NCBI RefSeq assembly: GCF_017302315.1
Contig: NZ_JAFLDT010000023.1
Location: 1-49,686, forward strand
From: Zoogloea sp.
Lineage (GTDB): Bacteria; Pseudomonadota; Gammaproteobacteria; Burkholderiales; Rhodocyclaceae
Length of the DNA: 49,686 nucleotides
Reading direction: 5' to 3'
Below, piece after piece: positions 27,338 to 43,539 of this stretch (its first letter is position 1; each line of letters starts with the position of its first letter). The position numbers were made by a program, and so were the translations under genes. Below the pieces are notes generated by a model. It did not search any database. It saw nothing but the letters and a program-made list of their open reading frames with translations, and was not told the DNA's origin.

Positions 27338-27391
27338 GCTGCACAATCCATGTTTCGTCCCCTCGTGGACCGAGGCCATGGGCTGTGCAGC
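27338..27391 (-). promoter_or_regulatory. Structured leader/inverted repeat upstream of wzm
   Basis: Arms 27338-27352 and 27377-27391 pair over 15 positions in the minus-strand transcript with one G-U wobble and one mismatch. The intervening sequence contains a second hairpin, CCTCG/CGAGG (27361-27375). No T run follows, so a simple terminator is unlikely. The element ends about 20 bases before the wzm ATG. It could be an attenuator-like RNA structure or a protein operator. Confidence 0.45.
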
Positions 27392-27475
27392 GGGCGCGGG
27401 CATCAATAGCATCGCAACAGCATCCCCGGGGATCTGCTGCAGATGCACGGTACAGGCATGAGGGAGATGTGTGTG

Positions 27476-28369
27476 TTACTTGCTCACGGCCCGCCGCACG
27501 GCATCGGCGTCGATCTTGATCGTGGCAGGATCACGCAGCGGATCGGCAATCTTCTTGCGCACCTCACCACGCATGCGAGTGCGAACGCTCTCCATCAGGG
27601 CCTCCTTCACCTCGTCGAAGGGACGCAGCACCGGCGCCTGACGCTCTTCGAAACGGATGATGTGCAGCCCGAAGTTGGTCTCCACGATCCCGGACAGCTC
27701 GCCCGGCTTCTTCATGGCGAAGGCGACCGCCTCGAATTCGGGCACCATCGTGCCCTTCGGCTTCATCCCGAGATCACCACCCCGCTTGCCTGAGCCAGGA
27801 TCATCGGAGTACTGCCGGGCAAGTTCTTCGAAGGACTCGCCATTGCGCAGCTTTTCGAGCACGGACTCGGCCAGCGCACGGGAGGCGGACCGATCGCTGC
27901 CGCAAGCCCGGAAAAGAATGTGGCGCGCACGTACTTCCTCAGGCTTGGTGAATTTTTCCGGAAATGCCTTGTACTCATCGCGAGCGATGGCTTCCACCTG
28001 GCTCTCGGACACGGCTTTGGACTCGGCCTGCTCCATGTAGATCTCGTACAAGGCACGTTCTTCCGCCAACTTGAGGCGATCAAGAATGTCCTTGCGAGTG
28101 GCAAGCCCTTCCTCACGCGCTTTGTTCGCCACCAAGCGACGCAGCATGATGTCGGCAGCCATTCGCTCACCGGAAGGAGAACCGGGCTCGCGCATGCGCT
28201 TCAGCAACTCGGGCGATCGTCCGACCATATCAGCTTGCAGATCGGCGGCGGTAACAGCAGCCTTGCCATGAGTGGCAACGATCTCGTCACCCGCATGAGA
28301 CTGGTATGAAACAAGCGCGGCAAAAACAAAAGGAACGATGTGAAGATTCGACAACTTCAATTTGCTCAC
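27476..28369 (-). CDS. Periplasmic parvulin-type peptidyl-prolyl isomerase (SurA/PpiC family)
   Basis: The protein has 297 residues. The signal peptide ends near residue 27 (SYQSHA, then GDE). Next come a SurA-like helical chaperone segment and a parvulin domain at about 140-255. The parvulin domain has VRARHILFRA, ELARQYSDDPGSGKRGGDLGM and the ending NFGLHIIRFEERQ. Such enzymes assist folding or keep exported proteins competent in the periplasm. It lies 149 bases downstream of the surface protein gene, behind that gene's terminator hairpins, so it is either read through or separately transcribed. The GTG at 28369 is the listed start; TTG 28360 with GGAG eight bases upstream is possible. A dedicated helper for the neighbouring exported protein is likely. 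Confidence 0.85.
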   Translation of the reverse strand: MSKLKLSNLHIVPFVFAALVSYQSHAGDEIVATHGKAAVTAADLQADMVGRSPELLKRMREPGSPSGERMAADIMLRRLVANKAREEGLATRKDILDRLKLAEERALYEIYMEQAESKAVSESQVEAIARDEYKAFPEKFTKPEEVRARHILFRACGSDRSASRALAESVLEKLRNGESFEELARQYSDDPGSGKRGGDLGMKPKGTMVPEFEAVAFAMKKPGELSGIVETNFGLHIIRFEERQAPVLRPFDEVKEALMESVRTRMRGEVRKKIADPLRDPATIKIDADAVRRAVSK

Positions 28370-28447
28370 TCCGAATGGAAAAGCAGAAAAGACAACACCT
28401 GTTCAATGGAGGTTCATCACAAGCAATGGCCCTGAACTCGCAACAAA

Positions 28448-28482
28448 AATGACAAAGGCGGGACAAGCCCGCCTTTGTCATT
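28448..28482 (-). terminator. Strong rho-independent terminator of the surface protein gene
   Basis: A perfect 15-base stem (28448-28462 with 28468-28482) and a 5-base loop. On the minus strand it is followed by a T-rich run (ATTTTTGTTG). It lies 37 bases past the surface-protein stop. Confidence 0.85.
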
Positions 28483-28483
28483 C

Positions 28484-28503
28484 AACACCCCCGAAGGGGT
28501 GTT
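28484..28503 (-). terminator. Second hairpin just after the surface protein stop
   Basis: AACACCCC (28484-28491) pairs with GGGGTGTT (28496-28503) around a CGAA loop, which reads TTCG on the minus-strand RNA and is an extra-stable tetraloop. It sits 15 bases after the stop and directly before the main terminator. It probably protects the mRNA 3' end or adds to termination. Confidence 0.6.
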
Positions 28504-28518
28504 TAGGTACAGCTCAAC

Positions 28519-29955
28519 TTACCACTTCAGCGGCAGAACTTGGCCGTAGTTGGTGCCGGAGGCGCCAACGCTGGAGTTGAACACGTTCACCGCGGTGAAG
28601 CCGATAACCGGCAGCGGGCCGTTGGCGCTGGTGGTGCTCAGACGAACCAGACCATCATCGTAAGCAAAGGTGTAATCCTGAGCGGTGATGTTGGCCTTCA
28701 GAGCGCCGGACGGAGCGGAGCCGTTGTTGATGGACACAACGGACACTTCACCGATCAGGGTCCAGGTGGCGGAACCTTGCGGGTTCGGGGAGATCACGAT
28801 GCTGCTCTGATCAACCACGGTACGCTCTTCACGGTCATAGACGGTGGGAGCGCCGACGACCACGGAGTTGGTGGCAGCAGCCAGGCTGGCGTAGGGGCCA
28901 GTGGCGCCGGCAACGGTGGCCAGGGTGCGCAGCGGATCGGTGCCAGCAGCCGGGGTGTCGGTCCAGGTGTAGTAGTAACGACGGGTCGGCTGGGACAGGA
29001 CGACATCGGTAGCAGCAAGGATGTTATCAGCCGTGGCGTACTCGGTAACGACGGAACCCTTGGCCAGGATGCCTTGCAGCTCGGCCAGTTGAGCGGTCAC
29101 GTTGGCGGTGCCGTACGGGGTCGACAGGTCGGGCAGGTCGAATTCGTACATGCGCACGTTGCCGGTGGCGGTGTTGAACACACTGTCAGCGGTGGTGGCG
29201 GCGTCAAAGGCGATCAGCGGGAAGGACGCGGTGCCGGTGGTCAGGTTGGCCTGACGGGCGTAGCGAACGGGCACAGCGGAGCTCTGAACCAGGGCGGTAC
29301 CGGGGATGGTGAAGGCCTTGGAGGAAGCAACGTTGATGATGGTCGCGAAGGAGGTCAGACCGGAGGTCGGAGCCGACAGGGAGGCGGTCAGGTCGTTGGG
29401 CTCGACACCAGTACCGACCAGGACGGAAGAGGTGCAAGGAGCAACGCCATTCACGTGCTTGGTGGCAGTGAAGAGAGCGCCCTGAGCAGCGGAGCCACCG
29501 TTAGCGGTGCTGACGATGTCGCCCATGTTGATGATCTCAACATAGCCTTCACGGGTGCCTTGAGCCTTGTTGGCATCCAGCAGACGGGCGGTCACGAACT
29601 GCTGATTGACGCTGGTCGGCAGGGTGCAGGACTTGTCGCTGGTAGCCAGGCGGGCAACGGTGCCGTCCAGAGTCACAGCAGCGGTCCAGACGTCAGCCGG
29701 GGACAGGAAGACTTGGAAGTCAAAGACGTCGTCGGAGAACTGAGCGCCGCGGAAGCGGACCTTGACAGCCTTGCCGTTAACTTCGTCGGTGTTCGCGATA
29801 CTGATCAGGGTGGTGTTGCCGCTCTGAACAGAGTAGTACGGCAGGATGTTGATATGACCCACACCATTTTGCGCAACGGTGATCGCTGCGTTCGAAACTC
29901 CGGACAGCGCACCCAGAGTGGCCGCAACACCAACAGCAAGAAGCTTTTTCTTCAT
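28519..29955 (-). CDS. Exported abundant surface-layer-like protein, family not recognised
   Basis: The protein has 478 residues. A typical signal peptide (MKKKLLAVGVAATLGALSG) is cleaved near SNA-AIT, around residue 23. The mature part is rich in Ala, Thr, Val and Ser and poor in Lys. It has only two Cys (SDKSCTLP and APCTSS), which probably form a disulphide, and no membrane helix, lipobox, PEP-CTERM or porin-like ending. Expression signals are strong: an AGGAGT site, a near-consensus promoter, tandem 3' hairpins, and codon use that is more restricted and less GC-rich than its neighbours. All this suggests a major envelope or extracellular protein. The adjacent type II secretion operon and parvulin suggest how it leaves the cell. 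Calling it S-layer-like is inference. Confidence 0.75.
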   Translation of the reverse strand: MKKKLLAVGVAATLGALSGVSNAAITVAQNGVGHINILPYYSVQSGNTTLISIANTDEVNGKAVKVRFRGAQFSDDVFDFQVFLSPADVWTAAVTLDGTVARLATSDKSCTLPTSVNQQFVTARLLDANKAQGTREGYVEIINMGDIVSTANGGSAAQGALFTATKHVNGVAPCTSSVLVGTGVEPNDLTASLSAPTSGLTSFATIINVASSKAFTIPGTALVQSSAVPVRYARQANLTTGTASFPLIAFDAATTADSVFNTATGNVRMYEFDLPDLSTPYGTANVTAQLAELQGILAKGSVVTEYATADNILAATDVVLSQPTRRYYYTWTDTPAAGTDPLRTLATVAGATGPYASLAAATNSVVVGAPTVYDREERTVVDQSSIVISPNPQGSATWTLIGEVSVVSINNGSAPSGALKANITAQDYTFAYDDGLVRLSTTSANGPLPVIGFTAVNVFNSSVGASGTNYGQVLPLKW

Positions 29956-30144: not shown

Positions 30145-30597
30145 CTAGAATCGCTCGTACCGCCACCACTCACCTGCTTCGAGTATCCAACGCTCCTCGA
30201 GATCGGTCGTGGTTTCCGGGTAACCCCGTTGCAGAGGCGCAAAACCAATGCGCATGGTTACATCGCAGGTTGCGTCCTTGCATTTTACGTTAACGACATC
30301 TGCACTCTTAAGTTTAGCTGCGGGCGCGGAACGGCCGCGAAAACCGAAAAGATCAACGGCCTTGCGGTAAGCAGGCGTGGCGAAACTGTAGGCTTTCTCC
30401 CAGTTACCTGCAACCAGGGCATCCCACCTTGCCTGGGCACGCTCCCTTACATCCGCCTCCGGCTCGCGCGGCGCAAACGTGGCGCAGCCTCCCAATACGG
30501 AAAGACAGGCGGCCCCGATGATACCCCACGATCTGAGGCGCCCAAACCAGGAAAAAGTCACACCGGACCTAAAAAACATCATGACTTCATTCATCAT
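30145..30597 (-). CDS. Small putative lipoprotein following the secretin gene
   Basis: The product is about 150 residues. A hydrophobic signal ends in the lipobox LGGC (Cys38 from the first Met; Met7 may be the real start). The mature domain of about 110 residues has RERAQARWDALVAGNWEKAYSF and later WILEAGEWWRYE, which resembles small NTF2/SnoaL-like folds. A CKDATC pair may form a disulphide. It begins 53 bases after gspD, so it is likely the last gene of the secretion operon. Secretins often need a lipoprotein pilotin for insertion in the outer membrane. This gene is the only candidate in the window, though it is not recognisably GspS or AspS. Confidence 0.7.
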   Translation of the reverse strand: MMNEVMMFFRSGVTFSWFGRLRSWGIIGAACLSVLGGCATFAPREPEADVRERAQARWDALVAGNWEKAYSFATPAYRKAVDLFGFRGRSAPAAKLKSADVVNVKCKDATCDVTMRIGFAPLQRGYPETTTDLEERWILEAGEWWRYERF

Positions 30598-30650: not shown

Positions 30651-32975
30651 TCAGCGCTTGATACCCAGCAAAGGCTTGAGCCCCTGCATCTTGGACTTCA
30701 ACTCCGAGCCCACCTCACGAACATCCTGCTCGGTACGCACCACCCGCGGGGTGATCATCACCAACAGCTCCGTCCGGGTCTTGGACAAAGTGGTTGTGGA
30801 AAACAGGGCGCCGATCACCGGAATATCCTGGAGCCACGGAATACCCTGCTTGCCGTCACCCTTGTTGTCACGGATCAAGCCGCCGAGCACGATGGTTTCG
30901 CCCGAACGCACTGCCACCTTGCTGGCGATCATCCGCTGCAGGAAGCTGCGCTGACCGGTGGCCGAATCGATGCTCCCTACGTCGGAAATGCTCTGATTGA
31001 TCTGCATGGAGATCAGATTGCCGGCATTGACTGAAGGGGTCACCGAAAGAAGGACACCGGTATCCTTGTACTGGATCGATGAGGTGCTGACCCCGCCGTC
31101 GGTCACCGTCGTGGATGAACGGATCGGCTGCTGATCCCCCACCTGGATCGAAGCGGTCTGGTTGTCGAGCACCATGACCGACGGCGACGATATTACGTTG
31201 ACCAGTTGCTTGTCCGCCATGGCGTTAAGCACCGCACGGACCGCCCCGAGGGGATTGGTGACGGTGTAGGAGAAACCTTGCTGAGCGGTATTGATGGCGC
31301 CCGTTGAGGAATTTCCAAGCACGCCCGTACCACGCCAGCCGCCATTGCCTAGCCCGCCTTCAAAATACCATTGCAGACCATACTTGGTCTCGTCAGTCAG
31401 GGTGACCTCGACGATGCTCGCCTCGATAAGTACCTGGTTAGGGGTGATGTCAAGCTGGCGCAGGGCTGCCTCAATGCGTTTGTAGTCCCTGCGCGGAGCA
31501 TGGATCAACAATGCGTTGTTGTTGTTGTCGGCCACCACGCGCACATCCTTGCCCAGATTCACCTGGGTGACCGAGGAGGGAATGACCTGGGCATTCTGAC
31601 CCGACCGGGTCGAGGCGAGGTTGGTGGCCCCGGTTCCAAACCCCCCAGTCCCGGTCGTCAAGCCCAAGGTACCCGTCGTGGTTCCAAACCCCGTTGTACC
31701 CTGGGTTGCGGTCGCAAGGCCGGGGGCCACACCCGTTGCCGACTGGCCCGTGTTGGTCGATGACTGAGGTGCGTACAACCCATTGAGGAGATTGGCCAGA
31801 TGCTGGGCCGACCCGTTCTGGACAGGGTATACATATAGCTGCGCCTCGCCGTCCGACTCCATGGGCTTGTCCAGACGTTCGATCCAGGACTTGGCCTGCT
31901 CCAACATGTGGGCGCGGGGCGTGATCACAAGAAGCGCGTTGAGTCGCTCGATGCCGAGCACCCGGATCAGCCCGCCGAGGGGGCCCGCCATGCGCACTGC
32001 CGCAGAACCCGCATCATCCGTCTTTCCCGTGCCCGTCCCCGAAGAGGCGGGCTTTGCGGCAGAACCACCACCCGCCTCACCACTGGCAAAGAGCGAGCGT
32101 AGCGTCGTCTCGACTTCCTTGACCGAGGAGTTCTCAAGGGGAAAGAGCCCCACTGACATGCCCTTGAGCATGTCCACATCGAAGGTGGAGACAATCTCGA
32201 GCCATCCCTCGACCTGATTGCGGGAGCCCACCAGCACCAGCACGTTGCGCAGGACATCAACACGCACAAAGGCTTCAGGCCCGGCCACCGGACGGAGAAT
32301 GTCGGCCATCTCGGCCGCGCCGATATGCTGCAGGGGAATGATCACGCTGCCATATCCCGGCAGGTTGGAATCGGCCCGACGGGGAACGGGCACGGCACTC
32401 TTCATCGTCTCGGCCTTGCCGATGCGATAGCGCCCATTGACATCAGGCACCATGACAATGCCGTTGTTCAGAAGCAGGGACTCCAGAATGCCCAGCAGTT
32501 GATCCTTGGGCACTGCCCCCTGCGTATGCAGGGTGATGTCGCCGCTCAGCGGGGGCACAATGGCGTAATCGAGCTTGAGCAGATCCCCCATGATGAAGTG
32601 GATCACTTCCGTTACGGGGGCCTTCTCGAAACGAAGACCAACCCCCTTGTCATCCGACACCACCAGATTTCTCGTAGCGGGCAGCTTCAAGAGCTGGTCG
32701 TTTCCCTTGATGAGAACAGGCCCCGAGCGCTTGACCTTGGCGGCCTGCGCAGCAGAACTGGCCGGCGGTTCGGCTGACGGCACCGAACCATCCGCCCGAT
32801 AGGCGTCGACCGTTGCCGGCGCCTCGACGCCGGCCCTGCCCGAGGCCTCGGCCGACAGCAGGGGCGAGGTCTGGGCGTCGGGCACATCCTGGGCAAGCGC
32901 CCCCATCGACAGCGCCAGCCCCAGGGACCAGGCCAGTAAGACAGATTGCAGCCGATTCATCCGAAGGAAATCCAT
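30651..32975 (-). CDS. gspD: Type II secretion system secretin GspD
   Basis: The product is about 774 residues. After a signal peptide (ending near GALA-QDV) and a variable Ala/Pro-rich segment comes the N0 domain (LRFEKAPVTEVIHFIMGDLLKLDY), then N1-N3 domains, and the secretin barrel. Its signature is GIPWLQDIPVIGALFSTTTLSKTRTELLVMITPRVV near the C terminus, and VQVGDQQP-type and VLGGLIRDN motifs are also present. Between the N domains lies an unusually Gly/Thr-rich run (about 405-460; GTTGFGTTTGTLGLTTGTGG). It forms the outer-membrane gate. The start is uncertain: ATG 32975 is used, while GTG 32987 (overlapping the previous stop) and ATG 32960 are alternatives. Confidence 0.93.
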   Translation of the reverse strand: MDFLRMNRLQSVLLAWSLGLALSMGALAQDVPDAQTSPLLSAEASGRAGVEAPATVDAYRADGSVPSAEPPASSAAQAAKVKRSGPVLIKGNDQLLKLPATRNLVVSDDKGVGLRFEKAPVTEVIHFIMGDLLKLDYAIVPPLSGDITLHTQGAVPKDQLLGILESLLLNNGIVMVPDVNGRYRIGKAETMKSAVPVPRRADSNLPGYGSVIIPLQHIGAAEMADILRPVAGPEAFVRVDVLRNVLVLVGSRNQVEGWLEIVSTFDVDMLKGMSVGLFPLENSSVKEVETTLRSLFASGEAGGGSAAKPASSGTGTGKTDDAGSAAVRMAGPLGGLIRVLGIERLNALLVITPRAHMLEQAKSWIERLDKPMESDGEAQLYVYPVQNGSAQHLANLLNGLYAPQSSTNTGQSATGVAPGLATATQGTTGFGTTTGTLGLTTGTGGFGTGATNLASTRSGQNAQVIPSSVTQVNLGKDVRVVADNNNNALLIHAPRRDYKRIEAALRQLDITPNQVLIEASIVEVTLTDETKYGLQWYFEGGLGNGGWRGTGVLGNSSTGAINTAQQGFSYTVTNPLGAVRAVLNAMADKQLVNVISSPSVMVLDNQTASIQVGDQQPIRSSTTVTDGGVSTSSIQYKDTGVLLSVTPSVNAGNLISMQINQSISDVGSIDSATGQRSFLQRMIASKVAVRSGETIVLGGLIRDNKGDGKQGIPWLQDIPVIGALFSTTTLSKTRTELLVMITPRVVRTEQDVREVGSELKSKMQGLKPLLGIKR

Positions 32976-32983
32976 GTGTAGTG

Positions 32984-33646
32984 TCACTGCGCAGGAGGAG
33001 GCTTGTTGCCGCGAGCCAGAAGGGCCGCCTTGCGCGCGCGGCGCGCGGCAATTTCCTCATCCACTGTTCGCGACTGACCGTCGCTTCCCATTATCCGGGG
33101 CCCACCGTCGGCTCCGCCCCCCCCGCCCCCTTGGGCCAGAGCCCCATCCGGAGCCCCTTGCACCGCATGCTTGAGATCCAGTGAGCGCATCTCGCCGCCT
33201 GCACCCTTGAAGCGTGCGGTCTTGCCGTCCACGCCGTCAAGCGACCAAGCGCCCAGCGTCTGACCGACCATGACGCGGCGGAACCTGCCACCGGTAAGGG
33301 CAATCACGCCGCTTTGCTCGCCACCAATCATCAGACCAACCAGCCGGATATCCGCAAGGGGATCCGGCTCCTGCTCGGCATCCGATTTCACCGGCGGCGG
33401 CGGTGGCGGAGGCCTGCGGCTGGCCCAGAACAGGGGACGCTCACCCGTGCTGTTGAGCTGGGAAAGATCCCTCTGCAGTGGAGTGATCCGATGGACGGTG
33501 AGCGAGTCGGATGCAGGCGGAATCGCCACCGGAGCCCGCCAGAGAATATTCTTCAGGTCAAAATCCTCGTCCAGCCAAAGGGCGCCCAGCCCCCAGGCAA
33601 GCCCCAGATTCAAGGCCACAAGCACAGGCCAAAGCTTGATTCTCAT
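32984..33646 (-). CDS. gspN: GspN/GspC-like inner-membrane linker of the type II secretion system
   Basis: The protein has 220 residues. One N-terminal membrane helix (WPVLVALNLGLAWGLGALWL) is followed by a periplasmic part with a run of prolines (RRPPPPPPPVKS). Next is a homology-region-like small beta domain, DIRLVGLMIGGEQSGVIALTGGRFRRVMVGQTLGAWSLDGVDG, resembling the HR domain of GspC and the core of PilP. There is no PDZ domain; the tail is Gly-rich and basic. Its position just before gspD corresponds to xpsN in Xanthomonas, the GspC equivalent that links the inner-membrane platform to the secretin. It overlaps gspM by ATGA. Confidence 0.8.
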   Translation of the reverse strand: MRIKLWPVLVALNLGLAWGLGALWLDEDFDLKNILWRAPVAIPPASDSLTVHRITPLQRDLSQLNSTGERPLFWASRRPPPPPPPVKSDAEQEPDPLADIRLVGLMIGGEQSGVIALTGGRFRRVMVGQTLGAWSLDGVDGKTARFKGAGGEMRSLDLKHAVQGAPDGALAQGGGGGGADGGPRIMGSDGQSRTVDEEIAARRARKAALLARGNKPPPAQ

Positions 33647-34194
33647 GGCTGGATCCGCAGGGACATGACAACCATCGTCGCGGAAACCAGCTGGGGCTGC
33701 TTGGGATCACCGCGATCGATGGCCCGCAGGCTGAGCGTATCCACAAACAGGACCGGGGCATCACCGGCGAGTGCAGCGAGCGTCATCTGCAGGCCCTGGA
33801 GGCCGCCCTCAAGGGTGAGGGACACCGGTATCTGCTCGACGCCATTTTCCAAACGGACCGGCAGCACCTGACTACTGACGATGTTCATGCCCGATGCCTC
33901 TGCCGCCTTCCGCGCCCGCTGCTGCACGTCATTGCCCGCCTTGCCGGAATCCTGCTCGGCCGGATAGGCCCAGCGACGTAGACTCGCATAGGCATCGAGC
34001 ACCGTCTTCTTCAGGGGGCCATCAGCCCCCTGAAGCCCCAACAAGCGGGCATAGCGGGGCTCGATTTCCTCGATGACGGCCTGGGCGGCAAGATACCGCT
34101 CCCAGGCATAGCCCGCAGCCACCGCAACGACTGCGATGACAACGGCAAAGGTCACACCCACGGCAACGACCGCCCGATGACGAATCAGCTTCAT
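33643..34194 (-). CDS. gspM: Type II secretion protein GspM (GspM-b type)
   Basis: The protein has 183 residues. A single N-terminal membrane helix (VAVGVTFAVVIAVVAVAAGYAW) is followed by a coiled segment (EEIEPRYARLLGL) and a ferredoxin-like periplasmic domain. That domain carries EASGMNIVSSQVLPVRLENGVEQIPVSLTLEGGLQGLQMTL and ends LVSATMVVMSLR. This matches the T2SSM_b family of Xps-like systems rather than classical GspM. It partners with GspL in the inner-membrane platform. It is joined by ATGA overlaps to its neighbours on both sides. Confidence 0.85.
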   Translation of the reverse strand: MKLIRHRAVVAVGVTFAVVIAVVAVAAGYAWERYLAAQAVIEEIEPRYARLLGLQGADGPLKKTVLDAYASLRRWAYPAEQDSGKAGNDVQQRARKAAEASGMNIVSSQVLPVRLENGVEQIPVSLTLEGGLQGLQMTLAALAGDAPVLFVDTLSLRAIDRGDPKQPQLVSATMVVMSLRIQP

Positions 34195-35225
34195 TGAGCC
34201 TTCTCCGCCCGGTCGACCTTGAACTCAATCGTGAAGTACTCCTTGGCGCTGCCCTGCACCCGCGTGGTCGCTGTTGGTGCCTTGACCTCACTGTAACCAG
34301 GCTGCGCGGACAGCAGATCGAGAAGCCGGGCCGCGTTGGCGGCCTGGCCGGCAATGCGGACCGTATTGCCCTTGAACTCCAGGGAGTTAACAAGCACATC
34401 ATCAGGCAGCAGGCGCGACAACTCGTCCAGCGTCAGGAGGGGATTTCCGTAAGCCGCAACCGCGCTCCCCACCTTCTCGAGACTGGCATTGAACTTCATC
34501 AGATCCGCACGCAGATTGACCTGGGGCGATGAGGCCTTGGCGAGCTTCTGGCTGCGCACCACGGCGTCGAACATCCGTTCGCGCAACTGCAGCAGGGGCG
34601 TCAGTGCGATAGCCACCGCAAGGGCCACTGCCAGCACCAGCAAACCCCGATTCACCCAGCGGAGGCGCCGCCCCTCGCCCTCACCTTTGCCCTTCGCCTC
34701 GCCGAAACCGCGCACGACAACGGGCTGCTCTCCTCCCGCCCAGACCTCGCACAGGGAAGGCAGACCCTCCACCTGCAGATTTGCCAGATGACGCTCGATC
34801 AGCGCTCGCGACGAAAGCACGGACGCCACGTGCAGGACATCTCCTTCCCCCGCCGGGCGCAAAGCAAACCCCCACACCAGATCGCTTTCCGGAAAAGGAC
34901 TGGCGCTGCGGGCATCAAGGGCCACTGCAGCCTCCAGATCCCTGGCTGCCAGACGAGGCAGGATCAGACGCCGGCGCAGCACCAGATCTTCAGGCAGTTC
35001 GACGGCCGTCCGCTCCACCTTTCCCTTGAAATTAACCGGCGTGGCGGACACCCCGAGGCGCACGCTCGTCCGCCCGGTCTCATCCATCACGCGTACCGGT
35101 GGCTGCGGATTGAACCAGCGAAATAGCGGCCACGCAGCCGCATCCGCCCATCCGTCCCGGAAATAGCGGCCGACGGCCGCCAGGTCGAGCCCGAAAAGAT
35201 CGTATTGACTCTTGGAACTGCTCAT
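34191..35225 (-). CDS. gspL: Type II secretion protein GspL (PilN-like)
   Basis: The protein has 344 residues. The N-terminal cytoplasmic domain of about 190 residues is an actin/PilM-like remnant (ELPEDLVLRRRLILPRLAARDLEAAVALDARSASPF, as in GspL). A membrane helix at about 192-212 (GLLVLAVALAVAIALTPLL) leads to a periplasmic PilN-like ferredoxin domain, with DELSRLLPDDVLVNSLEFKGNTVRIAGQA. It recruits the GspE ATPase to the membrane. The start ATG abuts the gspK stop directly (TGA then ATG). Confidence 0.85.
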   Translation of the reverse strand: MSSSKSQYDLFGLDLAAVGRYFRDGWADAAAWPLFRWFNPQPPVRVMDETGRTSVRLGVSATPVNFKGKVERTAVELPEDLVLRRRLILPRLAARDLEAAVALDARSASPFPESDLVWGFALRPAGEGDVLHVASVLSSRALIERHLANLQVEGLPSLCEVWAGGEQPVVVRGFGEAKGKGEGEGRRLRWVNRGLLVLAVALAVAIALTPLLQLRERMFDAVVRSQKLAKASSPQVNLRADLMKFNASLEKVGSAVAAYGNPLLTLDELSRLLPDDVLVNSLEFKGNTVRIAGQAANAARLLDLLSAQPGYSEVKAPTATTRVQGSAKEYFTIEFKVDRAEKAQ

Positions 35226-36143: not shown

Positions 36144-36796
36144 GGCGATCCGGCTCCGGTCACAATGCGGCCGGACGCGCCCGCCGGCAACAGGCTGCGC
36201 ACCGGAAGAACCAGCAGCGGCCATTCGCTGCCGGCAGCCAGGATCGAAACACGGATACGGGCAAGGGTTCGCGGGTCCGGGCTGTTGCGCCATTCGCCGA
36301 GCCACTCGCCGCCATCATCAAGCTGGTAGGCCAGGGAAAACCCCTCCAGGCGCCCCACCAGAACCCGCTGCTCCGCCAGCGACCAGTCCGGCAGAACCTC
36401 GCCCCCGAAGTAGGGAAGGTATGACAAGAGCAATGCATCGCCGCCCGAACTGGTCAGCCCACGCTGAAGCCTGAAATGATGCAGTCCGCCAACGCCGTGC
36501 CGCGCCGGCATCACCCCGATCCACTCCAGCGCGGCAGGAGTACCGACAAACGTACTTTCGCCGGGCGTACCGGCCAGGGACTGGCGGGGACGGAGAACCA
36601 CCTGGCCAAGTACATCATCAAGGAATCCGGAGACCACCCGACGCTCATCCACCAGGGCGAGCCGCGCATCAAGCTTCTCCTCGGTCAAGCCAAGGGAGCG
36701 CATTGCGGTCAGCAAACCCACCATGATGATCGCCACGATCACCAGGGAAATGATCAATTCGATAACCGTGAAGCCGCCTTCCCGCCCTGCTTTCAC
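36140..36796 (-). CDS. gspJ: Type II secretion minor pseudopilin GspJ
   Basis: The protein has 218 residues and a GTG start overlapping the gspI stop. The prepilin site is REGG before FTVIELIISLVIVAIIMVGLL, with Glu at +5 of the mature protein. The rest is a beta-rich pseudopilin domain with MRSLGLTEEKLDARLALVDERR and a late ARIRVSILAAGSEWPLLVLPV strand pair. It forms the tip complex with GspI and GspK. The prepilin peptidase (GspO/PilD) is not encoded in this window, so it must be supplied elsewhere. Confidence 0.9.
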   Translation of the reverse strand: MKAGREGGFTVIELIISLVIVAIIMVGLLTAMRSLGLTEEKLDARLALVDERRVVSGFLDDVLGQVVLRPRQSLAGTPGESTFVGTPAALEWIGVMPARHGVGGLHHFRLQRGLTSSGGDALLLSYLPYFGGEVLPDWSLAEQRVLVGRLEGFSLAYQLDDGGEWLGEWRNSPDPRTLARIRVSILAAGSEWPLLVLPVRSLLPAGASGRIVTGAGSP

Positions 36797-37200
36797 CGGG
36801 GCGCTCCTGGGGGTGGCCGAAGTTGTGGCAACAGGCTCGACAGAACGACGGAGCGGGGATGCTCCGGATCTCCGAACCGGACCTCCACGTCCACCCGGTG
36901 CAATGGCACAGCAGGCCCGGGCAGCGGCGGCAAGGGGTAAGCCGCGGTGCGCATCTGCCAGCGCATCCCGCCATCCACCCCCTCCATGAAAAGCCCGGAC
37001 TCGGGAACCCCGTCCTGCAGTGCGAGCACCGAGCGGGCCGTGCGTACCGCCCGCTCGTAGTTCTCGGCATCGGCTACGGCGCGCACGCTGCCGCCACTGG
37101 TCCGGTACAGCACCGCGAGGGACAGGGCCATGATGGCGAAAGCAACGAGCACCTCAAGCAGGGAAAAGCCCCGCTGGGCGCGCGGGGAGCGCAGGCTCAT
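36793..37200 (-). CDS. gspI: Type II secretion minor pseudopilin GspI
   Basis: The protein has 135 residues. The prepilin motif is RAQRG before FSLLEVLVAFAIMALSLAVLY, with Glu at +5. The short pseudopilin domain ends VDVEVRFGDPEHPRSVVLSSLL. It sets the tip complex in motion by binding GspJ and GspK. The ATG at 37200 overlaps the gspH stop by ATGA. Confidence 0.9.
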   Translation of the reverse strand: MSLRSPRAQRGFSLLEVLVAFAIMALSLAVLYRTSGGSVRAVADAENYERAVRTARSVLALQDGVPESGLFMEGVDGGMRWQMRTAAYPLPPLPGPAVPLHRVDVEVRFGDPEHPRSVVLSSLLPQLRPPPGAPR

Positions 37201-37694
37201 CGGGAAATCGGCTCCTGGGTGACGGTTCCCAGCAGCCAATCAACCCGCAGGCGCACGCCGTCGCCGGTACGCTTGAGCACATCGACACTGCCACCGGTGG
37301 CGCCTCCCCCCGGATAGAAACGGATGCTGCCGCCACCTTGCCGCGACTCAATGCCCGCCACCACCAGGCGGACATCCACGGAGTCCGGCAAGGTGTGGTC
37401 CATCCGGCCCTGGGGGCCAAAAACCCGCTTTTCCGTGTCCACGGAAAACACCGTGCTCTGCCCGGTCTGGATGGACATCTGGCGCGCTGCCGTCATGCCG
37501 GCAAGCATGTGGCGCACCGTGCTGCGGTATTGGGAAGTCTCCATGAGCTTGCCGAAAGCCACCGGCGCAAGGCCCAGCAGCAATGCAATCACCGCAAAGG
37601 CAACGATCAGTTCGAGCAGGGTAAAACCGCTGAAGGCGCGGCGCGCCTTCGGGAGGCCCGGCCTGAGCGCCGGGCCCTCACTGCTACTTGCCAT
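37197..37694 (-). CDS. gspH: Type II secretion minor pseudopilin GspH
   Basis: The product is about 165 residues. The leader is longer than usual (about 27 residues), then the prepilin site AFSG before FTLLELIVAFAVIALLLGLAPVAF. The body carries the GspH family pattern TAARQMSIQTGQSTVFSVDTEKRVF, and the end is RLRVDWLLGTVTQEPI. It connects the tip to the main GspG pseudopilus. ATG 37694 is inside the end of gspG (11-base overlap). A start at 37769 would sit deep within gspG and is rejected. Confidence 0.9.
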   Translation of the reverse strand: MASSSEGPALRPGLPKARRAFSGFTLLELIVAFAVIALLLGLAPVAFGKLMETSQYRSTVRHMLAGMTAARQMSIQTGQSTVFSVDTEKRVFGPQGRMDHTLPDSVDVRLVVAGIESRQGGGSIRFYPGGGATGGSVDVLKRTGDGVRLRVDWLLGTVTQEPISR

Positions 37695-38124
37695 TGCGGA
37701 TGTCGGCGTTTTCACCCTCGCCACCCGGGGCGCCATCGGCCCCATAGGAGACGATCTCGACATCGGCACCGTTGGGGGAGCGCTTGTAACGGTAGGGGTT
37801 GTTCCACGGGTCCAGGGGCACCGAGCCCCCCTTCAGGTAGGGACCATCCCAGCCGTTGGCCGAGGCCGGCTTCTTGACCAGAGCCTCCAGCCCCTCCTCG
37901 TCCGACGGAAAGCGACCGACGCCGAGCTTGAAGAGTTCGACGGATTTCTCCAGATCGGCGATCTGGACACCGGCGGTCTTGCTCTTGGCACCGCCGAGCT
38001 GGCCGAGCATGCGCGGACCGACGAGGCCCACCAGCAGGGTCAGGATGGCCAGCACGACCAGCAGTTCGACCAGCGTGAAGCCGGCATTGCGCGCCACGCG
38101 CGAAGAACGGGATACGTACAGCAT
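37684..38124 (-). CDS. gspG: Type II secretion major pseudopilin GspG
   Basis: The protein has 146 residues. The prepilin site is RNAG before FTLVELLVVLAILTLLVGLVGPRM, the hallmark of the major pseudopilin. The calcium-site region is recognisable: FPSDEEGLEALVKKPASANGWDGPYLKGGSVPLDPWNNPYRYK, followed by VEIVSYGADGAPGGEGENADI. It polymerises into the piston-like pseudopilus. ATG 38124 with GGAG five bases upstream is chosen; GTG 38130 is possible. Confidence 0.95.
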   Translation of the reverse strand: MLYVSRSSRVARNAGFTLVELLVVLAILTLLVGLVGPRMLGQLGGAKSKTAGVQIADLEKSVELFKLGVGRFPSDEEGLEALVKKPASANGWDGPYLKGGSVPLDPWNNPYRYKRSPNGADVEIVSYGADGAPGGEGENADIRNGK

Positions 38125-38153
38125 TGGCACTCCGGATCTTGGATTGAAAAGTC

Positions 38154-39392
38154 TTACACCGCCAGATCGTTCACCGACAGGATGCCCATCAGGATCGATA
38201 CGATGATCCCGGCGATCATCACGCCGAGCGTCAGAATTAGCAAGGGTTCGAGGAGGGTCAGACCACGCTTGATGCTGGTCTCCACCTCCCGGTCGAGGAT
38301 GCGCGACAGCTCGAGCATCATGGTGTCGAGGCGGCCCGTCTCCTCCCCGACACGGACCAGATTGATCGCCATCGGTTCAAACAGCGCGGTCTTGTAGAGG
38401 GCATCGGTCATCCGCCCGCCGCCCTTCATGGCCGGCGCAATGCGTTCGAAAGCCGTGCGGACATGAACATTGCCGACCGTTTCGGTGGCGATGTTGAGGG
38501 CCGAGATCACCGGCACGCCATTGCCCAGCAGGGTGCCGAGGGAACGGGTGAAGCGGGTGATCTCGTATTTCAGGAAGATGGCCCCGAACACCGGCAGGCG
38601 CAGCGCCTTGCCCTGCCACCACAGGCGCCCGGCCGGGGAGGCAAACCAGCGGCTCAGGCCGGCCCCGAGCAGAAACACCACAACCCCCAGCAGCAGGCCG
38701 TAGTCGGTGAAGAAATGCCCGGTGGCCACCACGATGCGGGTGGGCGTGGGCAGGGCATCGCCCATGTCCTTGAACAGGGTCTCGAACTGGGGAACCACGA
38801 AGCCGAGCATGGCGATCACGGAAATCACCGCCACCAGCAGCAGGATTGCCGGGTAGATCATCGCCGAGATGACGCTCTCGCGCAGGGCCCGGATGCGCTC
38901 CAGGTGCTCCACCAGGCGCGTCAGCACTTCGCTCAGCTGGCCGCCGATCTCGCCGGAGCGGACCATGTTGATGTAAAAGTCGCCGAAGAAGTCGCGATGC
39001 GGTGCGATGGCGCGGCTCAGGGGCGCGCCGCCCTTGACGGCATCAAGCACACCAGCGAGAAGGCTCCCCACCGAAGCCTTGTGGCTCATGCCGATCAACA
39101 CCTTGAGCGCCCGGTCGAGGGACAGGCCCGCCCGCAACATGATGGCCAGCTCGGAGGTGAAGGCCAGCAGGTCGGCCTGGGTCGGCTTGCCCTTGGCCGG
39201 CGCCCGCCCGGTGGGCTGGGGAATGCCGTCCCTTGCCGCCTGCACCGCACCGGCCCCCGGGGGAGTGATGCGCAAGGGCGTCAGCCCCTTGGCCTTGAGG
39301 CTGCGCAGGGCCGCGTCTTCGCTGAGGGCGTCTATCACGCCGTCGCGGCGCACGCCCTTGGCATCGGCGGCCTGGTAGGCGAACTCAGGCAT
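38154..39392 (-). CDS. gspF: Type II secretion inner-membrane protein GspF
   Basis: The protein has 412 residues. It has the two repeated cytoplasmic helical domains of the GspF/PilC family. The first has FTSELAIMLRAGLSLDRALKVLIG, and the second has FTRSLGTLLGNGVPVISALNIATETVGN. Three membrane helices sit between and after them (about 175-200, 228-248, 380-405). The N terminus PEFAYQAADAKGVRRDGVIDALSEDAALR is standard. It is the platform around which the GspE ATPase turns. It overlaps gspE by eight bases. Confidence 0.95.
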   Translation of the reverse strand: MPEFAYQAADAKGVRRDGVIDALSEDAALRSLKAKGLTPLRITPPGAGAVQAARDGIPQPTGRAPAKGKPTQADLLAFTSELAIMLRAGLSLDRALKVLIGMSHKASVGSLLAGVLDAVKGGAPLSRAIAPHRDFFGDFYINMVRSGEIGGQLSEVLTRLVEHLERIRALRESVISAMIYPAILLLVAVISVIAMLGFVVPQFETLFKDMGDALPTPTRIVVATGHFFTDYGLLLGVVVFLLGAGLSRWFASPAGRLWWQGKALRLPVFGAIFLKYEITRFTRSLGTLLGNGVPVISALNIATETVGNVHVRTAFERIAPAMKGGGRMTDALYKTALFEPMAINLVRVGEETGRLDTMMLELSRILDREVETSIKRGLTLLEPLLILTLGVMIAGIIVSILMGILSVNDLAV

Positions 39393-41103
39393 TGCCCTGG
39401 TCCTGGGTCACGCGCAGGACTTCCTCCAGGCTGGTTTCACCGGCGGCCACCTTGCGCAGGCCGTCTTCATAGAGGGTGAACATGCCCGACTTGCGCGCCG
39501 TTTCATGCAGGGCAGTGGCGTCGGCACCCGAAATGATGGCCTGGTGCATGCTCTCGCCCAGCACGAACAGCTCGTGGATGCCGGTCCGCCCCGAATAGCC
39601 CGTCTGGCGGCATGCCGGGCAGCCCACCGGGTTGTAGACGCGGGTGCTCCCGCCCATGAAACGCTTCAGGCCGCTGCGTTCAAGCACGCTTTCATCGAGA
39701 TCCACCGGCGCCTTGCATGCCGTGCACAGGCGGCGCACCAGGCGCTGGGCCAGCACGCCATTCACCGACGAGGTGATCAGGTAGCGCTCCAGCCCCATGT
39801 CCTGCAGGCGGATCACCGCCCCGGCCGCCGTGTTGGTGTGCAGGGTGGACAGCACCAAGTGGCCGGTGAGCGCCGACTGCACGGCAATCTGGGCGGTTTC
39901 CCCGTCGCGCATTTCACCGATCATGATGATGTCCGGATCCTGACGCAGGATGGCACGCAGGGCGTTGGCAAAGCTCAGGCCGATCTGGGGATGAACCTGG
40001 ATCTGGTTGATGCCGCCCAACTGGTACTCCACCGGGTCTTCCACGGTGATGATCTTGGTGGCCTGGGCATCGAGCTTGCCGAGGGCAGCATACAGCGTGG
40101 TGGTCTTGCCCGAACCGGTGGGGCCGGTGACCAGCAGGATGCCGTGGGGCCGCTGCAGCAGCGACTCGAAGACTTCCAGCGTATCCCGGCTGAAGCCCAT
40201 CTCATGCAGGCTGAAGCGGATGCTGGCGCGATCAAGGACCCGCATCACCACGCTCTCGCCATGCACCGTCGGCACGGTGGACACCCGCAGATCCAGTTCG
40301 CGCCCCTTGATGCGCAGGTTGATCCGGCCGTCCTGGGGCAAGCGGCGTTCGGCGATATTGAGATGGGCCAGCAGCTTGATCCGCGACACCACCGCTGCTG
40401 ACATGGCCGGGGACACGGACTCGCCCATCTGGATCACCCCATCCACCCGATAGCGCACATGCAAACCGTCGTCGAAGGGTTCCAGATGAATGTCCGAGGC
40501 CTTCAGGTCGATGACCCGGGCCACGATCTGGTTCACCAGGCGGATCACCGGCGCTTCGCTGGCCAGATCCTTCAGATGCTCGATGAAGTCGCCGCCGGCT
40601 TCGAAATCATCCCCGCCGTCGACCTCGCCCTCCTCCTCGACAGGCGCCTCCAGCAGGCCTTTCAACCCAACCTCGATGTCGCCCTCAAGGCCCATGGCCA
40701 GTCGCACGTCCAGGCCCGTGGCAAGGCGCAGCGCCTTGGCGATGAAGCCGTTCTGCGGCTCGGCACAGACGACGGTGAGCACCCCACCCTCGTCGCGGAT
40801 GGGCAGCGCATGGTGAGACGTCAGGAAATCCGTCGAAATGCCCTCTGGCAATGGCAGATCGGCCGGAAAGGCGTCGGCAAGCACCAGGGGCACGTTTAGC
40901 TGGCGCGACAGGGCACGCGCCACATCCAGGTCGGAGACCACACCCAGACGGATCAACACCGATCCCAGCATGCCCCCCATCTCGGCCTGCGCCGACAGGG
41001 CACGCTCCAGATCCCGGGCACCGAGCTTGCCCTCGGCAACCAGCATCTCCCCGAGCATGGGACGCGGCGCTTGCAAGTCAGGGGAAAGAGTCTGTTCAGT
41101 CAT
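39385..41103 (-). CDS. gspE: Type II secretion ATPase GspE
   Basis: The protein has 572 residues. Two N-terminal MshEN/N1E-type segments come first (LGEMLVAEGKLGARDLERAL and FIAKALRLATGLDVRL). The ATPase core has Walker A GPTGSGKTTT near 326-335, the Asp box EDPVEYQLGGINQ, Walker B IIMIGEMRDGETA and the His box LVLSTLHTNTA. A zinc-binding four-Cys arm is present (LCTACK near 461, then CPACRQTGYSGRTGIHE near 495). It powers pseudopilus assembly as a hexamer at the cytoplasmic face. It starts 30 bases after the TPR gene, in the same direction. Confidence 0.95.
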   Translation of the reverse strand: MTEQTLSPDLQAPRPMLGEMLVAEGKLGARDLERALSAQAEMGGMLGSVLIRLGVVSDLDVARALSRQLNVPLVLADAFPADLPLPEGISTDFLTSHHALPIRDEGGVLTVVCAEPQNGFIAKALRLATGLDVRLAMGLEGDIEVGLKGLLEAPVEEEGEVDGGDDFEAGGDFIEHLKDLASEAPVIRLVNQIVARVIDLKASDIHLEPFDDGLHVRYRVDGVIQMGESVSPAMSAAVVSRIKLLAHLNIAERRLPQDGRINLRIKGRELDLRVSTVPTVHGESVVMRVLDRASIRFSLHEMGFSRDTLEVFESLLQRPHGILLVTGPTGSGKTTTLYAALGKLDAQATKIITVEDPVEYQLGGINQIQVHPQIGLSFANALRAILRQDPDIIMIGEMRDGETAQIAVQSALTGHLVLSTLHTNTAAGAVIRLQDMGLERYLITSSVNGVLAQRLVRRLCTACKAPVDLDESVLERSGLKRFMGGSTRVYNPVGCPACRQTGYSGRTGIHELFVLGESMHQAIISGADATALHETARKSGMFTLYEDGLRKVAAGETSLEEVLRVTQDQGNA

Positions 41104-41133
41104 GGGCTTGGGTCGGTGGGCAACGGCCCGGGG

Positions 41134-43539
41134 TCACTTCTGTTCGGCCTTGCTGCGGGCGAGGGCCTTGGCCGACTCCAGCATCTGCGTCACCGTGGCC
41201 CGCAGTTTGGCCGCTTCGGGCTTCCTGTCCACGATCACTTTGGCCCGCTCCAGCAAGGGCAGCGCGCCCTGGTGATCGCCGCGCGCGACACGTTCAGTCG
41301 CCACATTGTTGAGGGAGGTGGCCAGGTCCAGGTCGTCCACCGGACGGAGGGCTTCCCGGATGCGCAGGGCTTCAAGCAGGTGCTCGGCCGCTTCGGGCCC
41401 CGCGCGCCGCTCGAACAGGGAGACACCCAGGTTGTTTTCGGCATTGCCCAGCTCCGCGCTCACACCGCCGGTAGCCCGGCGGAGAATGGCGATGGCGCGG
41501 CGGTAGCACGGCTCGGCTTCGTCGGCGCGGCCCTGGAGGCGCCAGGATTCCCCCAGGTTGTTGAGGATCACGCCGGTCTGGGGATTGTCGTCATGGAGCA
41601 CCGCCGCCCGGGTTTCGAGCAGGAAACGGTAGTCGGTGGCGGCCTCGGCATAGCGCTGCTGGGCAAACGCCAGATCGGCGAGCATCAGGCGCAAGGTCAG
41701 GATGGAGGGATCCCGGTCGGCATTCGGGCGGGACTCCCGCAGGGTGAGCAGGCGCCGGTAAAGGCTCTCGGCCTCGACCATGTTGCCGTTGGCCTTGTGA
41801 ATGCCGGCCACCCGTTCGAGCAGAGCCTCGAAGGCCGGGCTGCCGGAGCCGAGCGTCAGCTCGCTCCCCGTCACCAGGCGCTTGTAGAGGGGCGCAGCAT
41901 CGCCGTAGCGCTTGCGGGCGAGATAGGCGTCCGCCTGGGTTTCAAGTAAGGCCAGAACGGTCGGATGATCCGGCCCGAGGAAGGCGGTCTGGATGGCCAG
42001 CAGGCGCGTGTTGTACCCGTCGAGTTCGCCCTGCTCACCATTGGCGAGGCTGATCGCGGCCAGGCCATTGAGGGGTGGCAGCAATTCGGGATGTTCCGGA
42101 CCGAAAACCTGCTCCAGTGAAGCAAGGGACTTCTTGAACCGGGGCGTCGCCTCCAGGTAGCGCCCCTGCAGACGGTAAAGCTCGGCCAGTTCGTAGCGGG
42201 CACGGGCCACGGCCGGATGGGCAGCAGGCAGATTCTTCTCGCGCATGGCAAGGGCGCGGCGGTACAGGGGCTCGGCCCGGGCAACATTGCCCTCGGCCAC
42301 GGCAACCCGCGCCCGCACGGACTCGGCCAGCACCAGCGCCGGGTGGTCGGACCACACCCCGTCCTGCAAGGCTAGGAAGGCCTCATCGAGAAGGACATCG
42401 GCCTCCTCATGGCGTCCCTGGGCGCTAACCACCGCAGCCTGCCGTGCCAGCACCTCGGCATAGTCCGGATGATCACGGCCAAGACGCTCCTCGCGGATGA
42501 TCACGGCCCGTTGCAGTGTGCGCTCGGCAAGCGCGTACTGACGCTGGTCGGCATACAGGGCAGCCAGCCGGATCAAGGCGGAAGCGACCTCGGGGTGAGT
42601 ACGGCCAAGGCGCTGCTCACGGATCTCCAGGGCACGTCGATACAGGGGCTCGGCAGCACTGAAACGATATTGGGACCGATACAGCTCGGCCGTCGCCAGC
42701 AGGGACAAGGCCACGTCGGGATGCCTGGCCCCCAGGGTACGCTCGCGGATGTCCATCGCCCGGAGACACAGCTTCCCGGCCTGGGCGTAGCGCCCTTGCT
42801 CGCGCAGGAGCTCGCATTGATCGCCCAGGGAGGCCGCCATGTCGGGGTGGTCGGCCGCAAGGGCCTTCTCGCGAATTGCCAGCGCCCGTGCCTGCAGGGG
42901 TTCGGCCGCCGGGAACAAGCCCTGGGCCCGGTACAGCTCGGCCAGGTTGCCGAGGGACATGGCCACGTCCGGGTGGGTGGGCGACAGGGCACGCTCGCGC
43001 AGATCAAGGGCGCGCTTGTGCAGCAGCGCCGACTTGGCGTAGTTACCCCTGGCCTTGTGGTAGGCCCCAAGATTGTTCAGCGAGTTGGCCACCTCAATGC
43101 TGGTGTAGCCGCGCACACCCTCACGGATGTCGAACGCGCGGTTGAGCAGCCCCTCCGCCTTGTCAAGACGGCCCTGCCCCAGATAGACCAGGCCGAGATT
43201 GTTCAGGGAGGTGGCGACGTCGGGATGATCCGGTCCGAGGCGGCTTTCGCGGAGGGACAGGGCCCGCTCGAAAACAGGCTCGGCGAGATCGAAATCCGCG
43301 TTGAGGACGTGGACCGAACCCAGCTCATTGAGGGCCGAAGCCAGTTTCAAGGCCCCTGCGCGCCCGCCTTGCTCGGCCGCCTCGACAGCGCCCAGGGCAG
43401 CCTTCAAGCGAGCATCGTAACCCTGGAAAGCCACCAGGGCAGTGGGCGCAGAGGCGGCAGTACTGGCGGGTAAGGCAGGCGCAGAAACAAGGCCCAGCAG
43501 GCTCACGGCGAGCATGCCGAGGGCGAAACGTGGTTTCAT
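41134..43539 (-). CDS. Exported tetratricopeptide-repeat protein leading the type II secretion operon
   Basis: The protein has 801 residues. The signal peptide spans about residues 1-26 (LAVSLLGLVSAPALPA). The rest is almost entirely repeats of about 42 residues of the kinesin-light-chain kind (TPR_10/TPR_12), for example LGPDHPDVATSLNNLGLVYLGQGRLDKAEGLLNRA. At least fifteen are visible, some of them degenerate. The protein should form a long superhelix in the periplasm and bind proteins. Only 30 bases separate it from gspE, so it is probably co-transcribed. An assembly factor for the pseudopilus or secretin, or a substrate adaptor, are reasonable but unproven roles. It is not a standard component of known type II systems. 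Confidence 0.82.
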   Translation of the reverse strand: MKPRFALGMLAVSLLGLVSAPALPASTAASAPTALVAFQGYDARLKAALGAVEAAEQGGRAGALKLASALNELGSVHVLNADFDLAEPVFERALSLRESRLGPDHPDVATSLNNLGLVYLGQGRLDKAEGLLNRAFDIREGVRGYTSIEVANSLNNLGAYHKARGNYAKSALLHKRALDLRERALSPTHPDVAMSLGNLAELYRAQGLFPAAEPLQARALAIREKALAADHPDMAASLGDQCELLREQGRYAQAGKLCLRAMDIRERTLGARHPDVALSLLATAELYRSQYRFSAAEPLYRRALEIREQRLGRTHPEVASALIRLAALYADQRQYALAERTLQRAVIIREERLGRDHPDYAEVLARQAAVVSAQGRHEEADVLLDEAFLALQDGVWSDHPALVLAESVRARVAVAEGNVARAEPLYRRALAMREKNLPAAHPAVARARYELAELYRLQGRYLEATPRFKKSLASLEQVFGPEHPELLPPLNGLAAISLANGEQGELDGYNTRLLAIQTAFLGPDHPTVLALLETQADAYLARKRYGDAAPLYKRLVTGSELTLGSGSPAFEALLERVAGIHKANGNMVEAESLYRRLLTLRESRPNADRDPSILTLRLMLADLAFAQQRYAEAATDYRFLLETRAAVLHDDNPQTGVILNNLGESWRLQGRADEAEPCYRRAIAILRRATGGVSAELGNAENNLGVSLFERRAGPEAAEHLLEALRIREALRPVDDLDLATSLNNVATERVARGDHQGALPLLERAKVIVDRKPEAAKLRATVTQMLESAKALARSKAEQK

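Follow-up and report, generated by a model that had tools for sequence, protein, structure and literature searches.

What does a type II secretion system (T2SS) export when it is encoded beside an O-antigen exporter, and do the genes around it belong together? This question is raised by a stretch of 49,686 nucleotides (NZ_JAFLDT010000023.1, hereafter the window), from contig 82 of a 4.5 Mb draft genome of Zoogloea sp. The run of genes concerned lies on the minus strand throughout, in the order TPR protein, gspE-F-G-H-I-J-K-L-M-N-D, lipoprotein, 478-residue protein, parvulin, wzm, wzt and sugar-decoration genes. An earlier reading of the bare DNA letters (hereafter the sequence-only reading) had described this order, and every gene that it listed was found in its place and on that strand. 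I report here that the 478-residue protein is, by homology, a member of the NpdA surface-layer family, and that the block is very probably an NpdA-type surface-layer cassette, with proposed provision for export, folding and O-polysaccharide anchoring, and a lipoprotein as proposed assembly factor.

Assignment of the 478-residue protein to the NpdA family

The gene and the element that follows it are:

28519..29955, minus strand: npdA, surface-layer protein, 478 residues, assigned by full-length homology to the NpdA family, codon bias and composition
28430..28518, minus strand: stem-loops after npdA, probable transcription terminator (-46.7 kcal/mol, z -6.1; none of 200 shuffles is as stable)

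NpdA has been published from Delftia (2011; PMC3110197) and from Paracidovorax citrulli (2023; PMC10765051). It is described as forming the surface layer (S-layer) of Delftia acidovorans Cs1-4 and P. citrulli (PMC3110197, PMC10765051), with orthologues given for 62 betaproteobacterial and 49 gammaproteobacterial species, including Zoogloea oleivorans (PMC10765051). The window protein is 78% identical to that of Z. oleivorans, and its full-length identity is 41% to Acidovorax delafieldii 2AN, 39% to P. konjaci and 30% to Rudaea cellulosilytica. The last three organisms are on the cryo-electron microscopy (cryo-EM) list of PMC10765051, where a bead-like layer is reported for most cultures, P. 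valerianellae and S. psychrophila being the named exceptions. As the Delftia Cs1-4 and P. citrulli proteins were not among the compared loci, the link to the genetically proven NpdA is indirect. A scan of genome contigs returned 228 relatives of the window protein; among the best 80 of these 228, the nearest, at 92–93% identity, comes from a metagenome assembly of Zoogloea, and Z. dura and Z. oleivorans are next with 78–81%.

The sequence-only reading had considered the family unrecognised and had proposed a new type of surface layer. The family is NpdA (PMC3110197, PMC10765051), though it lacks a Pfam or NCBIfam model: the protein has no match in either database at E<=0.1, and only single ones among 58 aligned family members give weak hits. 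A new S-layer type is ruled out by the published NpdA together with the full-length homology, and the position of NpdA beside a T2SS is likewise already in print. The same reading had advised searching the protein against proteomes and structures, which gave NpdA homologues on the first count. On the second, no PDB sequence matched the NpdA profile at E<=1, and the structure model, itself good, has predicted fold neighbours that are weak and nearly all in the N-terminal half.

An apparent signal peptide spans residues ∼1–23 (signal peptides of the window proteins were judged by eye), leaving a mature protein of ∼455 residues, 47 kDa and pI 4.7, acidic and Cys-poor in composition. Cys110 is invariant in the 58 aligned members, and Cys174 is present in 51 of them. 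Position 401 is a cysteine in 44 of these 58 relatives and an isoleucine (Ile401) in the window protein; a second disulfide may be missing in Zoogloea-type NpdA.

The protein had also been called strongly expressed, for which codon usage is the only support. The effective number of codons of npdA is 31.3, against 48.9 expected from G+C content at third codon positions (GC3), a gap of 17.5 compared to 3.5–9.5 in 17 other chosen window genes; an 18th, ubiA, was left out, its row being out of frame. This measure was used because no ribosomal codon reference was at hand: L4 had no match in the assembly, and no ribosomal gene was recognised by eye beside the EF-Tu piece. A simple terminator scan did not list the hairpins 3' of npdA, and the one terminator-like site that it did list, upstream of npdA, is within chance expectation. 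No sigma-70-type promoter was found by a simple scan.

Could the protein be an NpdA derivative secreted as a matrix or adhesin protein, and no S-layer subunit here? The Zoogloea protein is known from sequence and not from microscopy, and broader relatives share only about the first 100–120 positions. Against this stand the full-length alignment with proteins of cryo-EM-listed organisms, the very strong codon bias, the acidic, Cys-poor composition and the complete conserved export block described below. I consider this explanation very improbable.

Conservation of the block around npdA

The immediate neighbours of npdA that enter the counts below, besides the gsp genes, are:

30145..30597, minus strand: NTF2-like lipoprotein, 150 residues, conserved, with no Pfam match of its own (NTF2-like by structure model)
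27476..28369, minus strand: parvulin-type peptidylprolyl isomerase, 297 residues, signal-like N-terminus (Rotamase_3, 1e-30)
26526..27344, minus strand: wzm, ABC-2 exporter permease (ABC2_membrane, 8.9e-16)
25327..26526, minus strand: wzt, exporter ATPase whose C-terminal domain resembles O-chain-binding ones (ABC_tran, 1.3e-21; Wzt_C, 7.8e-6, under the Pfam cut-off)

Locus counts were made on the best 80 of the 228 relatives, using the window proteins as queries, and are limited to loci whose flanking DNA suffices and to genes on the npdA strand. The loci come from Rhodocyclales, Burkholderiales, Candidatus Nitrotoga, Nitrincola, Haliea and Rhodanobacteraceae; several share a genus and so are not independent samples, and window-derived queries are less sensitive in the distant ones. 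The sequence-only reading had called for a check of block conservation in related genomes, and this gave gspD, lipoprotein, parvulin, wzm and wzt all beside npdA in 54 of 61 loci (parvulin, wzm and wzt within 10 kb). Counted singly, the lipoprotein lies within 2 kb upstream of npdA in 70/77 loci, and gspF, G, K, L and D all lie within 11 kb upstream in 52/58. The parvulin is found downstream within 10 kb in 59/61 loci; wzm and wzt are found downstream within 6.5 kb in 57/65 and within 10 kb in 56/61. Homologues occurring widely without a nearby T2SS or parvulin had been named as an observation that would count against the proposal; instead, gspD lies within 5 kb upstream of npdA in 64 of 70 loci, and in 63 of 68 the parvulin follows downstream at a centre-to-centre distance of up to 4.4 kb. 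The conservation across Beta- and Gammaproteobacteria strongly supports the integrated system that the sequence-only reading had envisaged, in which a surface protein would be combined with a dedicated T2SS, a periplasmic peptidylprolyl isomerase and an adjacent O-antigen exporter.

Beyond the 80, the block is annotated on the Comamonas odontotermitis plasmid NZ_CP083452, which carries in order rfbBDAC, gspE to gspD, a hypothetical protein, a 'cell surface protein', a peptidylprolyl isomerase, an ABC permease and an ABC ATPase. Two loci call for caution in their own right. In L024, from a metagenome assembly, npdA is in several pieces, perhaps through sequencing indels or as a decayed gene, and L094 is a divergent NpdA block in a metagenome bin labelled Bordetella parapertussis, a label that may be wrong.

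The lipoprotein family is well defined: of 74 loci with a match, 43 passed the start-site filter, and the 41 members aligned from these all have a lipobox and two further invariant cysteines. Its predicted fold is NTF2-like. A role as secretin pilotin was considered and set aside, since the predicted fold neighbours give no hint of it; it may still be the function. The parvulin matches PF13616 at 107.1 bits, against a gathering score of 22.5.

Several gammaproteobacterial loci and one Nitrotoga locus have an extra gene between npdA and the parvulin gene, encoding an apparently exported protein of ∼217–418 residues (L068:11734-12384, L096:11829-12485, L072:11688-12749 and similar ones), possibly a second layer component. 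A further locus, L101 (G084 contig 2, 136500-156000), encodes three large NpdA-like proteins (703, 889 and 791 residues) beside lipoprotein and parvulin genes; no gsp gene was detected there within 19.5 kb.

The type II secretion cluster and its link to npdA

The gsp run spans 30651-41103 on the minus strand, and is preceded by the gene for the TPR protein:

41134..43539, minus strand: TPR-repeat protein, 801 residues, signal-like N-terminus (Pfam TPR_12, 2.7e-108), in the block only in Zoogloea as far as seen
39385..41103, minus strand: gspE, secretion ATPase, 572 residues; orthologues 87–89% identical in three Zoogloea and 65% in G004, with a gspE annotated at the corresponding position in Comamonas
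38154..39392, minus strand: gspF, 412 residues; orthologues in order, annotated in Comamonas
37684..38130, minus strand: gspG, major pseudopilin (TIGR01710, 1.9e-41, above cut-off)
37197..37769, minus strand: gspH, Xps-like (top NCBIfam match XpsH, 3.4e-18, under cut-off)
36793..37239, minus strand: gspI, Xps-like (top NCBIfam match XpsI, 3.3e-14, under cut-off)
36140..36796, minus strand: gspJ, from weak NCBIfam matches and position
35226..36305, minus strand: gspK (NF037980, 2e-12, under cut-off) and position
34191..35225, minus strand: gspL, from a PilN domain (8.3e-14) only, and position
33643..34194, minus strand: gspM (T2SSM_b, 3.5e-21)
32984..33646, minus strand: gspN, named by position, which is conserved; no Pfam match
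30651..32987, minus strand: gspD, secretin, 778 residues (TIGR02517, 449.6 bits)

The D, E, F and G core is thus present in one cluster, with GspD (449.6 against 351.35 bits) and GspG (141 against 88.85 bits) over their NCBIfam equivalog cut-offs, and gspE and gspF named by orthology to the annotated Comamonas genes. I take the order E-F-G-H-I-J-K-L-M-N-D to be that of Xps systems. In an Xps-type system gspC is replaced by an XpsN-like protein, and the prepilin peptidase is encoded elsewhere. No gspC was seen in the window gsp run, at which no gspC-directed search was aimed. The TPR protein, which had been counted as part of the block, is so in the block exchanged among Zoogloea (71–80% identical in three Zoogloea, 28% in G004). 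The annotated Comamonas block does not have it, which rules it out as a universal member. It had no match in the 81 loci searched, though most of these end before that position.

Is this cluster dedicated to NpdA, or is it a general secretion machine that also exports it? Among 23 Zoogloea genomes, the window-type gspD (E<=1e-60) occurs in five, each with npdA. In a sixth npdA-bearing Zoogloea (G006), the contig stops ∼0.4 kb past the lipoprotein match, with only a piece of gspD there. Elsewhere in the Zoogloea sp. genome, which has six secretin matches, a second gspD-gspE pair is found on contig 104, a clear GspD (NCBIfam, 650 bits) adjoining GspE; others among the six are PilQ and MshL (NCBIfam). 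A separate, general type II system thus seems to exist in this genome, and a dedicated role for the window cluster fits with it. The general-machine explanation finds some room in P. citrulli, which has two gsp clusters: deletion of gspG in both diminished several virulence-related traits, a result that does not separate the shares of the two clusters (PMC10765051). Given the restriction of the window-type gspD to npdA carriers in Zoogloea and the second gspD-gspE pair, I regard it as quite improbable.

The lipoprotein co-occurs with npdA as well: in 60 related genomes, npdA is found in eight, and the lipoprotein family in exactly those eight. By the flanking epimerase gene, stretches of ∼19.5 kb from seven Zoogloea that lack npdA gave no match to gsp, lipoprotein, npdA or parvulin; one of these stretches holds a distant wzm-wzt, and an eighth, of 787 bases only, was unusable. 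Several Zoogloea assemblies without npdA are only 72–92% complete. In a wider class sample of 274 genomes, NpdA profile matches were found in 10 and lipoprotein profile matches in 17, and five of the six strong lipoprotein matches (E<1e-15) share a contig with npdA. Lipoprotein scoring took up to 14 candidates per genome in this sample, so that absences there are weaker.

Apparent exchange of the block and its O-chain genes

Comparison with another Zoogloea, G004, suggests how the block may move. The nearest shared flanks are 97–98% identical (the epimerase gene at one end and a pair of genes, 13464-16753, at the opposite end), whereas the cassette is not: TPR protein 28%, gspE 65%, gspD 55%, lipoprotein 36%, parvulin 33%, wzm 30% and wzt 44%, with NpdA at 35% in a genome search. 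With flanks at 97–98% and a cassette at 28–65%, everything from the TPR gene through the O-chain genes seems to have been swapped inside conserved flanks, that is, the block exchanged as a unit. Genes further out are less similar (Kdo transferase 89%, UbiA-type 82%, GT2 gene at 6855 72%). In the G004 stretches examined, there was no match to the DegT, FdtA, methyltransferase and 660-residue genes, and the GT2 match was partial and weak. A locus from another genus (G030/L023) has kept the lipoprotein (49%), NpdA (61–67%), parvulin (48%), wzm (61%), wzt (73%) and decoration genes (50–71%), together with a divergent type II cluster (gspE 51%, gspD 39%) on the opposite strand.

Two further observations concern the flanks. 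At 14693-16753 (+) the window encodes a 686-residue protein without Pfam match, 97% identical in G004 and 78–88% in three other Zoogloea. The other flank, at 43663-47472, encodes a sugar epimerase, a Kdo transferase (+) and a UbiA-type prenyltransferase, and the four Zoogloea compared have these genes conserved.

Downstream of the exporter lie the genes that would decorate the O-chain:

18993..25360, minus strand: O-chain decoration genes, namely a 660-residue open reading frame without Pfam match, DegT aminotransferase, GT2, hexapeptide-FdtA fusion and methyltransferase

The decoration set (660-residue protein, DegT, GT2 and FdtA) is found in five of 61 named loci with at least 9 kb downstream (L020, L021, L023, L024, L025). 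All five have an NpdA at least 61% identical to that of the window, and none of the other 56 has the set. L022 (NpdA 75%) ends too early to show it, L026 (NpdA 51–56%) has only a weak FdtA match, and a methyltransferase relative alone is found in 21 loci. This suggests that the NpdA subtype follows the O-chain type more closely than the secretion machine, the carriers being few and close relatives. At E<=0.001 the genome has no Wzt_C match other than the window wzt, which scores 26.4 bits as a single protein and 30.2 bits when the genome is searched, against a cut-off of 30.4.

Is the exporter part of the cassette?

A number of observations weigh against an integrated cassette. Seven loci miss the full-block count (L023, L060, L065, L067, L069, L085, L095). 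L060 and L065 are NpdA relatives without the block nearby; L065 is a second npdA copy of Diaphorobacter aerolatus, and in that species the block accompanies the other copy, L039. The exporter is missing at L067, L069 and L085, at L085 together with the parvulin; L095 has a different arrangement, and in L023 gspD lies on the opposite strand. In the class sample, G121 has a strong lipoprotein match and no npdA match, and five of the 10 NpdA-matching genomes have no lipoprotein match; four of these five match only about the first 100–120 NpdA positions, and in G175, the remaining one, two pieces together cover most of the profile. I infer the surface location and S-layer formation in this Zoogloea from sequence, which by itself cannot place a protein, and PMC10765051 leaves for future work the mutation of the npdA-adjacent T2SS that would test NpdA export. 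Finally, pairwise distances over 61 loci and the window, which are dominated by the Beta/Gamma split and include npdA and gspD of L024 only as pieces, correlate at 0.95 between wzm and wzt and at 0.82–0.87 among gspD, lipoprotein, npdA and parvulin, but only at 0.70–0.82 between these two groups. The window wzm-wzt is also closer to Rudaea (0.37/0.46) than to Acidovorax (0.27/0.32), and the reverse is true for gspD and npdA. The exporter genes have a history partly unlike that of the rest of the block, so that their adjacency may reflect only the cassette's seat in an O-antigen region.

These distances also speak for a different explanation, in which NpdA is an S-layer protein and the parvulin and O-antigen exporter are bystanders of a cassette that landed in the O-antigen region. 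Such regions are a common place for surface-variation genes, and L067, L069 and L085 keep gspD, lipoprotein and npdA without an exporter nearby. The parvulin fits this explanation poorly, as it tracks npdA (r 0.87, under the same Beta/Gamma split) and stays near it in loci of two classes. As for the exporter, it was apparently replaced with its position kept. Delftia NpdA is reported to reassemble only with lipopolysaccharide (LPS; PMC3110197), and the S-layer type II cluster of Aeromonas salmonicida sits between wzm and wzt, its layer being described as LPS-tethered (PMC4483657). I find the bystander explanation unlikely on balance, and retain that of an NpdA-type cassette that includes both helpers and the exporter.

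Proposed mechanism and implications

In the cassette model, NpdA would reach the periplasm by its Sec-like signal peptide and fold there, probably with a Cys110-Cys174 disulfide and with help from the adjacent parvulin. The Xps-type system encoded upstream would then carry it across the outer membrane, and at the surface NpdA would polymerise to a lattice held by O-polysaccharide, which the adjacent Wzm-Wzt exporter would make available. The small lipoprotein would be an assembly factor dedicated to this layer, with the outer membrane close to the secretin as its likeliest site. Export by this machine, and the roles of parvulin, lipoprotein and O-chain, are what I infer here.

A broader proposal, possible but rather doubtful, is that of a transferable module beyond the published pair of surface-layer protein and T2SS. 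The lipoprotein, NTF2-like and dedicated to this task at the outer membrane, would hand NpdA from the secretin to the surface, a likewise dedicated parvulin would prepare NpdA, and NpdA would be matched to one O-chain type. Lattice and O-polysaccharide would then be exchanged as a single surface-identity cassette, mountable on different T2SSs.

NpdA S-layers are widespread in Beta- and Gammaproteobacteria, and the genetic test of their export still lies ahead (PMC10765051). For such work, the conserved block points to two helpers and an O-antigen partner as candidates. If lattice and O-chain do travel together, the whole outer coat could be changed in one recombination event, with consequences for interactions with phages and predators and in biofilms. 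Zoogloea is a floc-former in activated sludge, and an NpdA coat may matter in such flocs too.

Comparison with known systems

The NpdA S-layer, NpdA beside a T2SS, and a Zoogloea species as npdA carrier are already known, and the gsp cluster upstream of npdA is given as largely conserved (PMC10765051). What is apparently new is the conservation of the wider block with lipoprotein, parvulin, wzm and wzt. The main text of PMC10765051 does not contain peptidyl, isomerase, chaperone, lipoprotein, lipopolysaccharide, LPS or O-antigen, and 'ABC transporter' occurs there in a reference title only; since none of those words occurs, the wider block is not described in that main text. No description of a lipoprotein, parvulin or O-antigen exporter as parts of an NpdA locus was found in searches of the open-access literature, whose hits, other than the two NpdA papers and the Slr4 paper, were screened as listings.

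The NpdA of D. acidovorans Cs1-4 and P. citrulli is, through its listed orthologues, of one family with the window protein, of similar size, with an apparent signal peptide and an upstream gsp cluster. The Xps-type T2SS of Xanthomonas shares the gene order E to D, and the window GspH and GspI have XpsH and XpsI as top NCBIfam matches; it differs in that the window cluster is followed by lipoprotein, NpdA and parvulin, and apparently has a single dedicated substrate. The A-layer (VapA) of A. salmonicida with its Sps type II system similarly places a surface protein beside a T2SS with an ABC O-antigen exporter adjacent, but order and placement differ, as the cluster there splits wzm from wzt; the likeness considered here is one of layout (PMC4483657). 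The Slr4 S-layer gene of Pseudoalteromonas tunicata also lies directly downstream of a T2SS cluster; Slr4 is, however, described as a separate protein, with threading onto RsaA reported (PMC7821379).

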